Translations under genes and position numbers: made by a program | Shown here: positions 25,585 to 29,621 of the stretch, in pieces | Layout of the letters: every line of letters begins with the position of its first letter | Position numbering within the stretch: position 1 is the stretch's first letter | Notes under the pieces: model-generated | What the model saw: the letters and a program-made list of their open reading frames with translations, nothing else | Databases searched by the model: none | What the model was told of the DNA's origin: nothing | Source of the DNA: Agromyces albus | Lineage (GTDB): Bacteria; Actinomycetota; Actinomycetes; Actinomycetales; Microbacteriaceae | Direction: 5' to 3' | Assembly: GCF_030815405.1 (NCBI RefSeq) | Contig: NZ_JAUSWX010000001.1 | Location: forward strand, 806,001 to 870,000 | Length of the DNA: 64,000 nucleotides

Positions 25585-27363
25585 ATGGCGCTACACGTCT
25601 CCCATTCCCAACATCTCCGCGCCGACGGACTCTCGGTCTCCTACCCCGAGCGGCGCATCTTCACCGACCTCGCCTTCGCGGTCGCGCCGGGTCATCGGCT
25701 CGGTCTCATCGGCGAGAACGGCGTGGGCAAGTCCACGTTGCTCCGACTCGTCGCGAGCGGTGATGAGCGAGCGGATGCCGAATCCGCCGCCGCCTTCGCC
25801 GACGCCCACGTCGCGGGCCGCATCTCGCGGCCTCGGCGCACGGGGCTCCTCGCGCAAGAACTGCCGTTCCACCCGCACGAGCGCGTCGGCGAGGTGCTCG
25901 AGGCGGCGCTCGCCGAGGTGCGCGCCATCGAGCGGGAGCTCGACGCCGCGGCATCCGCGCTCGCACACGACGAGTCCGTGGCATCCGCGAACCGCTATTC
26001 GGCGGCACTCGACGCGGCCGAACGCGCCGAGGTGTGGTCGGCCGAGTCGCGGCGCGACGAGCTGCTCGAGGGCCTCGGCGTCGCCGGGCTGGGCCTCGAG
26101 CGGGCGATCGGCGAGCTCTCCGGCGGCCAGCGCAGCCGGTTCGCGCTCGCGGCGCTGCTGCTCGGGGCTCCCGACGCGCTCCTGCTCGACGAGCCGACGA
26201 ACCATCTCGACGACGACGCCGCGGCCTTCCTCGAGGGCCGGCTCCGCGAGTGGCGCGGACCGGTGATGTTCGCGAGCCACGATCGGGAGTTCCTCGATCG
26301 GGTCGCGACCGGGCTCCTCGACCTCGATCCGGGCCGCGCGGGCGCGCTCGCCCTCTCGGCCTCGGGTGCGGCAAACGGTTCGACTCGCGACGACGCGCTC
26401 GCGGCCGCCGGAGGCACCATCTTCGGTGGCGGCTTCAGCGAGTTCCTCATGGTGAAGGCCGAGGAACAGGAGCGGTGGCGACGGCAATACGAGGCCGAAC
26501 AGGATGAGCTGAAGCGACTCCGCCTCGGCGTCGTCGAGACGGCACGCAACGTCTCGCACGGCCGCGCGCCGACCGACAACGACAAGTACCTCAAGCATTT
26601 CAAGCGGGGGAAGGTCGATCAGGCGGTATCGCGCCGCGTGCGCAACGCCGAGCTGCGCCTCGACACGCTCGAACGGGAGCAGGTGCGAAAGCCGCCGGCC
26701 CCCTTGGAGTTCGCGGGCATCCCGTCGGGCTCCCAAGCGCTCGAGGAGGCGTCGGGGCTGCTGCTGCAACTCTCGGATGTCGCGGTCGCCGGTCGCCTCG
26801 AACTCGACGCGCTGCAGGTGGCGCCGCTCACGCGGCTGCTCGTCACGGGCGCGAACGGCGCGGGCAAGTCGACCCTGCTCGGCGTGCTCGCGGGCACGCT
26901 TAGGGTCGACCGCGGCATCGTGCACCGGCGCAAGGGGCTGCGCGTCAGGCTCCTCGAGCAAGATGTGCGGTTCGCCGATCCGGATGCCTCGCCTCGTCGC
27001 CTCTACGAACAAGCGCTCGGTGAGCGACGCGCCGAGCAGGTTCCGCTCGCGAGCCTGGGACTCATCGCTCCACGCGACGAGAGCCGCCCCGTCGGCGCGC
27101 TCTCGGTGGGGCAGCAACGGAGGCTCGCGCTCGCGCTCGTGATCGCTCGGCCGCCGCACGTGTTCCTGCTCGACGAGCCGACGAACCATCTCTCGCTCGG
27201 GCTCGCGACCGACCTCGAGGAGGCGCTCGGCGCCTACCCCGGTGCGGTCATCATCGCGAGCCACGACCGCTGGCTGCGCCGCCGCTGGGCGGGGGAGCGC
27301 CTCGCTCTCGAGGCGGGGCGACCTGCTGGTGCGGAGCTGGAGCAACAGGTCGCCAAGGCGTGA
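25585..27363 (+). CDS. ABC-F family ATPase, probable ribosome-protection protein
   Basis: This 592-residue protein has two ABC domains and no membrane segments, as in ABC-F proteins. The first has GENGVGKST, LSGGQRSR and LLLDEPTNHLD. The second has TGANGAGKST, LSVGQQRR and FLLDEPTNHLS. Between them is a charged linker with an extended coiled region (KAEEQERWRRQYEAEQDELKRLR) that would enter the ribosomal E/P site. ABC-F proteins either protect the ribosome from antibiotics or act as translation factors. The long leader with an attenuator is typical of the antibiotic-inducible resistance type, so that role is favoured. The start follows GAAAGGGCG. Confidence 0.85.
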   Translation: MALHVSHSQHLRADGLSVSYPERRIFTDLAFAVAPGHRLGLIGENGVGKSTLLRLVASGDERADAESAAAFADAHVAGRISRPRRTGLLAQELPFHPHERVGEVLEAALAEVRAIERELDAAASALAHDESVASANRYSAALDAAERAEVWSAESRRDELLEGLGVAGLGLERAIGELSGGQRSRFALAALLLGAPDALLLDEPTNHLDDDAAAFLEGRLREWRGPVMFASHDREFLDRVATGLLDLDPGRAGALALSASGAANGSTRDDALAAAGGTIFGGGFSEFLMVKAEEQERWRRQYEAEQDELKRLRLGVVETARNVSHGRAPTDNDKYLKHFKRGKVDQAVSRRVRNAELRLDTLEREQVRKPPAPLEFAGIPSGSQALEEASGLLLQLSDVAVAGRLELDALQVAPLTRLLVTGANGAGKSTLLGVLAGTLRVDRGIVHRRKGLRVRLLEQDVRFADPDASPRRLYEQALGERRAEQVPLASLGLIAPRDESRPVGALSVGQQRRLALALVIARPPHVFLLDEPTNHLSLGLATDLEEALGAYPGAVIIASHDRWLRRRWAGERLALEAGRPAGAELEQQVAKA

Positions 27364-27490: not shown

Positions 27491-27508
27491 TTCGAACATG
27501 TGTTCGAA
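27491..27508. promoter_or_regulatory. LexA SOS box
   Basis: TTCGAACATGTGTTCGAA is an almost perfect palindrome; with one more base pair on each outer side (27489-27510) the arms are ten bases around a central TG. It fits the Gram-positive/mycobacterial LexA consensus CGAAC-N4-GTTCG exactly. It lies seven bases before ATG 27516, where LexA would block the promoter. Rv2578c, the mycobacterial homologue of the downstream gene, is known from the M. tuberculosis DNA-damage regulon studies to carry an SOS box. Confidence 0.85.
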
Positions 27509-27515
27509 TGTCGGT

Positions 27516-29621
27516 ATGAGGTGGAGCGGGCAGGAACTCGGCGTGGAGCAGTCCGACGCATTGCCCGGGCTCGCAAAGCTCAACAATCTCGTGCGCTCGG
27601 TGCAGACCCCCGATTTCGCCGGGGTGACCTTCCACGAAGTGCTCGCGAAGTCGGCGCTCAACAAGGTGCCCGGCCAGTCCGCGATGCCCTTCGGCTGGAC
27701 CATCAACCCCTACCGGGGCTGCACCCATGCTTGTGCCTATTGCCTGCATCCCGAGACCTCGATCACGATGGCCGACGGTCGACAGCAGCCGCTGTGGTCG
27801 GTCGAGGTCGGCGACGAAGTGCTCGGAACGCATGTGGTCGACGGGTTTCGCAGGTACACGGCCTCGAAAGTTCTCGCGAAGTGGGAATCGCGCAAGCGCG
27901 CGTACCGCGTATCACTCGCCGACGGCACCGAGCTCATCGCAAGCGGCGATCACCGATTCCTGACGAACCGAGGGTGGAAGTATGTGACGGGCGCGATGTT
28001 CGGCCCCGGGCAGCGCCCTTACCTCACCACGGCGAACTCGCTGATCGGGTTCGGGAGCCGAGGCGTCGGTCGCGCCCCATCCGTGCTGTCCGACGAGTAC
28101 GTCCGCGGCTACCTCTCCGGGATGATCCGGGGCGACGGAATGATGCTCCGTCGCACTTATCCGCGAAGTCGTGGCGGATCGTATGTCGCACACCACTTCC
28201 GGCTCGCCCTCGCCGATGAAGAGGCACTCGCAAGATCGCGCATGTATCTCGCGACCGTCGGTGTCTCGACGAATCAATTCCCCTTCTCGGGAGCCACCGA
28301 GACGCGTCGAGCCATGACCGCGATCCGCACGAGTCGTCGTGCAGATTTCGACGCGATCACGGAGGTGATCGCATGGCCGCCGATCCGTTCACGGGAGTGG
28401 CACGCCGGTTTCCTTGGCGGGGTGTTCGATGCTGAAGGATCGTGTTCACGCAGCGTCCTCCGCATCTCCAATTCCGATGAGGCGATTCTGCACTCGATTG
28501 AGGTCGCGCTCGCTGTGTTCGGGATCCCGTTCATCCGAGAAGCACCTCACCTCAATGGGGTCGCGAATATACGGATCACGGGCGGGTTGTCGTCACGGAA
28601 CGCCTTCTTCGCAATCGCACAGCCAGCGATCACGCGAAAACTGCAACTTGTCGGGGCCATGGTGAAGACCACCGCCGACCTCAGCATCGCAGCTATCGAT
28701 GATCTCGGCCAAGACGTCGACATGCTCGACATCACCACGACGACGGGGGACTTCATTGCGAACGGAGTCGTCAGCCACAACTGCTTCGCGCGGCCCACGC
28801 ACACGTACCTCGACCTCGACGCCGGCGACGACTTCGATCGCCAGATCATCGTGAAGGTGAACGTCGCCGACGTGCTGCGCACCGAGCTCGCGAAACCGTC
28901 GTGGAAGCGCGACGCGGTGGCGCTCGGCACGAACACCGATCCATACCAGCGAGCCGAGGGCCGATACACGCTCATGCCGGGCATCATCGACGCGCTCGCC
29001 ACGAGCGGCACGCCGTTCAGCATCCTCACGAAGGGCACGCTGCTGCGCCGCGATCTTCCGCTCATCGCCGAGGCGGCCAAGCTCGTGCCCGTCGACGTCG
29101 CCATGTCGATCGCGATCTATGACCACGAGCTGCAGCAATCGGTCGAGCCGGGCACGCCCAGTGCGAAGGCGAGGCTCGCGACGGTCTCGGCGGTTCGGGA
29201 GGCCGGCCTCGATTGCGCGGTCTTCCTGATGCCGATCCTGCCGTACCTCACTGATTCGAAGGCGCACCTCGACGATGCCTTGCGGCAGGCGAAGTCCGCC
29301 GGCGCCACGAGTGTGCTCTACACCGCGTTGCATCTCAGGGCCGGCGTGAAACCGTGGTTCATGCAGTGGCTGGAACGAGAACACCCTGAGCTCGTGCCGA
29401 AGTATCGGTCGATGTACTACGGCAACAATGCCTACGCGCCGAAGGCGTACCGGCGCTGGCTCGGCGAACGGATCCATCCGCTCATCAGGGCTCACGGGCT
29501 CGAGCGAGGTCGCGAAGATCCGGTCACGGGCGGCATCCGCTCGACCGCGCTCACCGGGGGAGCGGCCGTCGAGCTTCCCGAGGTCTTCGGCAGTCCGGCG
29601 GATCCCGCAGCCCTCTTCTGA
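27516..29621 (+). CDS. Rv2578c-family radical SAM protein, interrupted by an intein
   Basis: This 701-codon gene encodes a radical SAM protein of about 354 residues split by a 347-residue intein. The extein matches mycobacterial Rv2578c from the start (MRWSGQELGV, LVRSVQTPDFAGVTFHEVL, NKVPGQSAMPFGWTINPYRG) to the end (REDPVTGG region). The radical SAM motif is CTHACAY-C, and the intein sits before the third cysteine; after splicing it reads CTHACAYCFARPTH. Downstream are VALGTNTDPYQRAEGRY and SILTKGTLLRRDL. ATG 27516 is chosen because it aligns with the homologue and lies just after the SOS box. The family is related to spore-photoproduct-lyase-like enzymes, but its reaction is unknown. DNA-damage induction is inferred from the SOS box. 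Confidence 0.9.
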   Translation: MRWSGQELGVEQSDALPGLAKLNNLVRSVQTPDFAGVTFHEVLAKSALNKVPGQSAMPFGWTINPYRGCTHACAYCLHPETSITMADGRQQPLWSVEVGDEVLGTHVVDGFRRYTASKVLAKWESRKRAYRVSLADGTELIASGDHRFLTNRGWKYVTGAMFGPGQRPYLTTANSLIGFGSRGVGRAPSVLSDEYVRGYLSGMIRGDGMMLRRTYPRSRGGSYVAHHFRLALADEEALARSRMYLATVGVSTNQFPFSGATETRRAMTAIRTSRRADFDAITEVIAWPPIRSREWHAGFLGGVFDAEGSCSRSVLRISNSDEAILHSIEVALAVFGIPFIREAPHLNGVANIRITGGLSSRNAFFAIAQPAITRKLQLVGAMVKTTADLSIAAIDDLGQDVDMLDITTTTGDFIANGVVSHNCFARPTHTYLDLDAGDDFDRQIIVKVNVADVLRTELAKPSWKRDAVALGTNTDPYQRAEGRYTLMPGIIDALATSGTPFSILTKGTLLRRDLPLIAEAAKLVPVDVAMSIAIYDHELQQSVEPGTPSAKARLATVSAVREAGLDCAVFLMPILPYLTDSKAHLDDALRQAKSAGATSVLYTALHLRAGVKPWFMQWLEREHPELVPKYRSMYYGNNAYAPKAYRRWLGERIHPLIRAHGLERGREDPVTGGIRSTALTGGAAVELPEVFGSPADPAALF
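27741..28781 (+). mobile_element. Intein with LAGLIDADG homing endonuclease
   Basis: The insert begins at Cys (27741-27743) with CLHPETSITMADGRQQPLWSV and ends at Asn (28779-28781) in GVVSHN, followed by Cys+1. Block B is ELIASGDHRFLT. Two endonuclease motifs are seen, YLSGMIRGDG and FLGGVFDAEGS, each with its acidic residue. Block F is DMLDITTTTGDFIANG. All splicing residues (Cys1, block B His, penultimate His, final Asn, Cys+1) are present, so it should splice, and the endonuclease looks intact. Its codon choice is less GC-biased than the flanking extein. Cys+1 is also the third cluster ligand of the host enzyme. Confidence 0.93.

Follow-up and report, generated by a model that had tools for sequence, protein, structure and literature searches.

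The interrupted radical SAM gene

In the window, the 64,000-nucleotide stretch of the Agromyces albus genome analysed here, an Rv2578c-family radical SAM precursor gene lies on the forward strand at 27516..29621 and encodes 701 residues, intein included. The profile alignments of NF038136 and NF038135 both begin at the Met encoded at 27516, while the ATG at 27507 is a possible alternative start. The start at 27360 in the mechanical list of open reading frames was rejected, and the true start lies near 27507/27516.

The gene is composed of an N-extein (27516..27740), a 347-residue intein (27741..28781) and a C-extein (28782..29621), all on the forward strand. The N-extein ends in CTHACAY, which contributes Cys-7, Cys-3 and Tyr-1. 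The C-extein begins with CFARPTH, the first residue of which, Cys+1, is the third cluster ligand, as judged from the translation and the PF04055 match. The Cys1 codon is at 27741, the terminal His-Asn of the intein ends at 28781, and the Cys+1 codon is at 28782. Thus, the intein separates the second from the third Cys of the CxxxCxxC motif. An earlier note, made from the letters of the window, had placed an intein inside this motif with the same flanks, and its coordinates proved exact.

Profiles, alignment and Foldseek identify the insert as a class 1 intein with a LAGLIDADG homing endonuclease. It has Cys1, a block B S68-x-x-H71, the block F D330, the C-terminal His346-Asn347 and the downstream Cys+1, which together constitute the sequence features of class 1. 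S68, H71, D330 and H346-N347 are unchanged in all 12 rows of an alignment of family-level sequences. The block B position held by Ser here is usually Thr; with this nuance, all of the splicing and LAGLIDADG residues are visible, as the earlier note had read them. The homing endonuclease part occupies approximately 28086..28640 on the forward strand, a segment missing from three mini-inteins of the same alignment. Within it, on the same strand, the catalytic acids reside in GYLSGMIRGDG and GFLGGVFDAEG. The assignment to the LAGLIDADG homing endonucleases is based on these two motifs with their acids, on a PF14528 score above cut-off, and on the matches to I-DmoI. In a PDB profile search, I-DmoI was aligned over intein residues 118–280 and PI-PfuI was also matched, and the best Foldseek matches of the predicted intein were the homing endonucleases PI-PfuI, Tli VMA and PI-SceI, together with I-DmoI.

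The whole precursor matches NF038136, the NCBIfam model for the intein-containing Rv2578c family radical SAM proteins, at 769.4 bits (cut-off 700). The host matches NF038135 at 506.5 bits (cut-off 430), in agreement with its earlier description as an Rv2578c homologue, and the joining of CTHACAY to CFARP restores CxxxCxxC. Among the Pfam models, Radical_SAM (PF04055) and LAGLIDADG_3 (PF14528) exceeded their cut-offs; the intein splicing domain fell short of its own. The intein is ordered in the predicted precursor structure. Overall confidence in this prediction is modest (pTM 0.55), and the intein blocks are mostly at pLDDT 80–95 with patches near 65. Residues 66–72, including Cys-7, have pLDDT values below 50, and the model therefore gives no argument on Cys-Cys distances. 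The GC content of the intein is 0.626 as compared to 0.691 for the extein; being barely lower, it gives no strong indication that the intein arrived recently from a foreign source. A search of the whole genome with the intein N-terminal model TIGR01445 revealed no second intein.

Empty sites, relatives and loss of the endonuclease

The earlier note had staked its reading beforehand on a direct junction in intein-free homologues. Three congeners provide it: the alleles of G079 (L042, identical to L023), G142 (L043) and G194 (L044) read AC[AV]YCFARP in frame with no extra bases, and the insertion is clean at the codon level. The junction and these empty alleles bear out the proposal that Cys+1 occupies the positions of both third cluster ligand and splicing nucleophile. 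Before splicing, Cys1 of the intein holds the place of the third Cys, as also foreseen, and the precursor still reads CxxxCxxC.

The host family was matched in 138 of the 199 genomes of the window's family, in 133 of them above the cut-off. Twelve of the 138 host-bearing genomes have inteins (nine full and three mini, by match length and then by reading of all 12). With the precursor as query, 7992 relatives were retrieved in a protein search (E ≤1e-10), of which the best 120, the window's own included, were analysed; since this query contained the intein, this sample is biased toward intein carriers. The earlier note had suggested searching Rv2578c homologues for inteins at the same site, and Cys-7, Cys-3, Cys1, His-Asn and Cys+1 were present in 120/120 of these best 120 of 7992. 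Full-length inteins (at least 330 residues) made up 109 of the 120. Their two LAGLIDADG positions hold Asp and Glu in 100 cases and Glu and Glu in one. The other eight depart from the pattern at a single motif: in some it is an adjacent residue that deviates, and in at least one (P0058) it is the acid. The dN/dS of the endonuclease was 0.08–0.19 in four pairs, with dS saturated in three of them, and that of the C-extein was 0.13 and 0.23 against two congeners. The N-extein values were set aside, because the compared stretch included bases upstream of the start. The C-extein of the intein-free relative L046 contains a short tandem repeat (DDGLR repeated) that stays in frame.

In the window's class, up to five candidates were scored per genome, so that the counts are lower bounds. 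The host family was found at E ≤1e-60 in at least 172 of 394 genomes, and above the cut-off in at least 158. The intein profile matched at E ≤0.001 in at least 94 of the 394 and exceeded 115 bits in at least 33. No best score per genome fell between 41 and 115 bits, and the other 61 profile-matching genomes had weak, mostly N-terminal matches of at most 40.6 bits. The 33 strong genomes comprise 32 Rv2578c genes, with 11 full and 21 mini-inteins (29 read in sequence and three judged by match length), and one DUF5131 gene. In another genus, a mini-intein was present in 12/12 sampled gene-bearing genomes, as judged by match length among the matches listed. Nine of these were read (L069–L077), and all are 152 residues long with Cys1 as the sole cysteine. 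Across the sequences used for the trees, Cys1 is the only cysteine in 20 of 21 mini-inteins versus 0 of 18 full ones.

The extein tree had 73 rows, of which 34 were empty, 21 carried a mini-intein and 18 a full one. Omitted from the trees were L045 and L048, whose genes are broken or cut by a contig end; L067, a DUF5131 gene; and the duplicates L042 (= L023), L049 (= the window) and L050 (= L038). Presence and absence of the intein required eight changes on the best extein tree, clustered by lineage, and the starred branches force two. The splicing-domain and extein trees (39 rows each) had seven strongly supported splits in common and were in strong conflict at four intein splits, such as that joining L037 with L054. 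The eight presence changes and the strong conflicts between the trees point to some movement of the intein, and its history appears to have been largely one of vertical descent, with some transfer. The closely related sister hosts L033 and L040 carry a full intein and a mini-intein, respectively, and the splicing residues are intact in the mini-intein; the pair thus captures loss of the endonuclease with retention of the splicing residues. L045 is a decayed Rv2578c gene, in which a truncated cluster motif is followed by a fragment of the intein's block B region. Imprecise loss of the intein therefore kills the host gene, which alone can explain retention of the intein.

The closest outside relatives found were inteins of DUF5131 proteins (PF07505, phage Gp37/Gp68), a family known here by its three-Cys motif, and they lie at the last Cys of that motif. 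One such intein, L067:1501-2535, was the single strong non-Rv2578c match among those listed for the 394 class genomes. A protein search with L067 gave 286 relatives at E ≤1e-30, 120 of which were submitted to a strict parse. Eighty were parsed, 60 with an intein and 20 without, and Cys1, HN and Cys+1 were present in 60/60 of the strictly parsed inteins. The 40 unparsed proteins include some without an N-terminus and some with an intein but no C-junction under the pattern; a looser parse, which itself demands HN and Cys+1, gave 78 DUF5131 inteins. They and the Rv2578c inteins are homologues throughout their length: an hhalign comparison (331 columns, probability 100) covers the splicing as well as the endonuclease part. 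On the other hand, the motif spacing is C-x6-C-x2-C in DUF5131 as compared to CxxxCxxC in the Rv2578c family, and the profile match between the two hosts was not significant (38 columns around the three cysteines, probability 2.3). We therefore call the sites equivalent in motif and claim no homology between them. By raw identity counts, both DUF5131 examples share 14 of 21 bases with the insertion-site DNA of the window, and the archaeal site described below shares 10 of 21. Direct movement of the intein between the Rv2578c and DUF5131 host families is plausible, judging from these comparisons.

Another DUF5131 intein (L181:2501-3505) lies on a Streptomyces plasmid, adjoining the gene for a three-Cys-motif partner (TcmP); the PLSDB table, itself incomplete, has no gene at the position of the intein. 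A phage or plasmid origin was considered and rejected. A tblastn search returned no phage record and one plasmid record, a DUF5131 intein at 29% identity, and the intein profile picked out three viral contigs, all with weak matches and, by eye, in other hosts. These three are unrelated inteins, which appear by eye to reside in a ThyX-like host (L173) and in terminase-like hosts (L174 and L175).

A candidate LexA-type operator at the gene start

A candidate LexA/SOS-type operator, TTCGAACATGTGTTCGAA, lies at 27491..27508 (unstranded) and overlaps the gene start. It is a perfect TTCGAACN4GTTCGAA and the sole match within two mismatches in the window, where 0.21 were expected. Of 59 loci, 56 were usable in a scan for this box (L003 and L006 were short, and L067 is another gene), L055 was uninformative (a wrong-sized stretch), and 55 entered a shuffle control. 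The box core was found within one mismatch upstream of 51 of the 56 loci, perfectly in 31, and in intein-bearing and empty loci alike. It was absent at this threshold in five, including the full-intein loci L052 and L054. The distance from the box to the NPxRGC codon is 203–218 bases in 43 of the 51, 225–263 in seven and 426 in L065. Stretches of the same length inside the gene contained the box in 0/56 loci, and 200 shuffles gave a mean of 0.585 and a maximum of three boxes, as compared to 51 observed in the 55 loci.

In the 4.27-Mb genome, the perfect TCGAACN4GTTCGA occurs at three sites and the reversed pattern at none. One of the three precedes a gene pair. The second gene matches the Y-family polymerase family PF00817, and the first, which has no Pfam family, is ImuA' by eye. 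The third perfect site is seemingly inside a gene, again by eye. The presence of an SOS box near the start, conserved in relatives, is as expected of a member of a LexA regulon, and DNA damage probably induces the host and the endonuclease through this LexA-type box. If the box works, the two would be induced together, when recombination is also high.

Many database entries name the Rv2578c family 'DNA repair photolyase'. The available text of one report describes a Streptomyces venezuelae radical SAM gene, vnz_31145, that is induced about 20-fold by mitomycin C, is bound by LexA and is likened to thymine-lesion repair enzymes (PMC9380542). The box given for it, TCGACCGTTCGCTC at −61, forms a poor palindrome and does not resemble that of the window (PMC9380542). 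In Mycobacterium tuberculosis, the induction of a 'DNA repair photolyase' is RecA-dependent, according to the available part of PMC8151990. Both genes are set beside that of the window by description only, at the level of detail that these texts provide.

Interpretation and comparison with known systems

We propose, with a probability of about 0.82, that a working class 1 LAGLIDADG intein was inserted and has been retained at the codon for the third cluster Cys of an SOS-induced Rv2578c-family radical SAM gene, and that it homes to empty alleles. The anatomy, the conservation, the empty sites, the loss of the endonuclease and the SOS-type box, all read from the sequence, carry this proposal; from them we infer splicing and homing activity. 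Splicing would proceed by the four standard steps: the acyl shift at Cys1, transfer to Cys+1, cyclisation of Asn and the S-N shift. Cys+1 would then become the third cluster ligand. The host is probably a SplB-like DNA-lesion enzyme, and we suggest that the precursor is enzymatically inactive, because the intein parts the motif from the remaining barrel. The endonuclease would home into intein-free alleles, and binding of LexA to the host operator would tie its expression to DNA damage. Near-invariance of its sequence may favour the site of the third Cys, as may the destruction of the host gene on imprecise loss. A disulfide between Cys-3 and Cys1, as in the Pyrococcus abyssi 'MoaA' intein, would offer a ready brake in oxidising conditions. 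The ordinary reading of the locus is a homing element in a site that is hard to lose.

The geometry of the site raises the question of whether such a brake serves the host. In one alternative, the Cys-3/Cys1 disulfide keeps the precursor unspliced in an oxidised cell and protects the oxygen-sensitive enzyme, and reduction frees splicing to the benefit of the host. The C-x-x-C1 spacing in the best 120 of 7992 homologues is consistent with this, but Cys-3 is required by the enzyme anyway and the spacing needs no selection. The same positions form a published disulfide in the P. abyssi 'MoaA' intein, as far as the available texts of PMC10663303 and PMC3922620 go, and inteins occupy the same third Cys of a Thermococcales radical SAM protein. 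The reduction to a sole Cys1 in 20 of 21 mini-inteins, as against 0 of 18 full ones, and the endonuclease-free inteins in 12 of 12 gene-bearing genomes of one genus (nine read, among the matches listed) might also reflect service to the host. Retention of mini-inteins is expected in any case, however, with imprecise loss breaking the motif, and a switch carried by only 12 of 138 matching genomes of the family would be dispensable. We regard such a redox-gated switch as unlikely.

The earlier note had further claimed that a normal cluster could not form until splicing and that redox state or iron supply could gate activity. The claim about the cluster appears reasonable. Because Cys1 replaces the third Cys, the precursor keeps CxxxCxxC, and a non-productive cluster or metal site that blocks splicing is conceivable; this counts against a simple gate by iron supply, for which no evidence was found, since the splicing thiol might be occupied by iron or a cluster. 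In a second alternative, Cys-7, Cys-3 and Cys1 could coordinate Zn, Fe or an Fe-S cluster in the unspliced precursor and restrain Cys1, so that splicing would follow the metal or cluster state. The precursor motif with Cys1 as its third ligand is in line with such a sensor, whereas the predicted structure, with pLDDT below 50 at residues 66–72, is neutral either way. As any Cys1 intein placed before the third Cys gives the same geometry, geometry alone is no sign of regulation, and we judge a sensor very unlikely. It is extremely improbable that the element is dead or merely cleaving, with splicing and the host gene lost in this strain. Elsewhere, in L045, a remnant of the intein does lie in a broken host gene, but here the frame is open throughout, the catalytic residues are complete and the C-extein remains at a dN/dS of 0.13 and 0.23 against congeners. 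A bolder synthesis, which we consider quite unlikely, would make the third Cys of radical-SAM-type motifs a recurrent intein site, reached independently in archaea and shared by descent across two bacterial host families. In it, Cys1 would serve as a surrogate ligand, and the SOS response would produce a cluster-, metal- or redox-responsive precursor, from which splicing would free the repair enzyme only with reduced, free cysteines.

Whether inteins serve their hosts is still disputed, and a 2014 review saw, in its available text, no evidence that conditional splicing plays a physiological role (PMC4031507). The Rv2578c family provides a natural case for parasite versus control: its matched intein-free, full and endonuclease-free forms of one probably damage-induced gene make the distinction between parasite and switch directly testable, both in E. 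coli and in harmless actinomycetes of the soil. The insert sits at a metal ligand whose free thiol splicing needs. Taken together, the site of insertion, the relatives of the intein and the probable damage switch before the gene make the locus a good natural test of whether inteins are parasites only or also controls. Moreover, one site common to three host families bears on how inteins choose their targets and move between them.

The intein family itself is already named, by the NCBI model NF038136, and the same geometry is published for the P. abyssi 'MoaA' intein. NF038136 describes the same host family, insertion point and intein (aligned to profile positions 76–334), with no sequence difference of note; its name and description are silent on the cluster-cysteine position and on regulation. 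We found no published treatment of the Rv2578c-family intein by title or abstract opening, in a search that lay mostly outside the subscription journals. New here are the conservation of the motif in homologues, the spread of mini-inteins, the kinship with the DUF5131 inteins and the LexA/SOS-type box before the gene.

The Thermococcales have interrupted radical SAM genes with frames of 1040–1052 residues, in which the Radical_SAM match begins behind the cysteines. Five of the six genes were read (L176–L180), and all show RCNLxCWY / intein / CFFYA, the same third Cys as in the window. The host differs, with an extein of 589–597 residues from another family and frames below the archaeal MoaA cut-off; it is probably the 'MoaA' of reviews, and we take it to be perhaps a tetraether lipid synthase. 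True archaeal MoaA was rejected as the precedent host: no intein-sized span was found at the 88 TIGR02668 places listed from 91 Thermococcaceae genomes (one of which ends at a contig end), and no intein or LAGLIDADG domain in 66 long MoaA-like proteins. The Thermococcales inteins end in Ser-Asn, as compared to His-Asn in the Rv2578c intein, and homology between the two was undetected beyond a 63-column LAGLIDADG stretch. The site has thus been taken by at least two inteins between which no sequence kinship is detectable.

In the P. abyssi 'MoaA' intein, a Cys-3/Cys1 disulfide blocks splicing (Callahan et al. 2011, as related in the available parts of PMC10663303 and PMC3922620). As in the window, Cys-3 and Cys1 are three residues apart and Cys+1 follows. 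The Cys at −3 of the N-extein on which this redox trap depends is present in the window and in 120/120 of the best 120 of 7992 homologues. The central idea of the earlier note is therefore already in print for another radical SAM family, as these texts describe it. Oxidation likewise inhibits splicing of the M. tuberculosis SufB intein (PMC6195587) and of the Mycobacterium smegmatis DnaBi1 intein (PMC8891592), according to the available text of each. Like that of the window, these two inteins interrupt Fe-S or DNA-maintenance proteins, but they reside in other hosts and at other sites, and DnaBi1 belongs to class 3.
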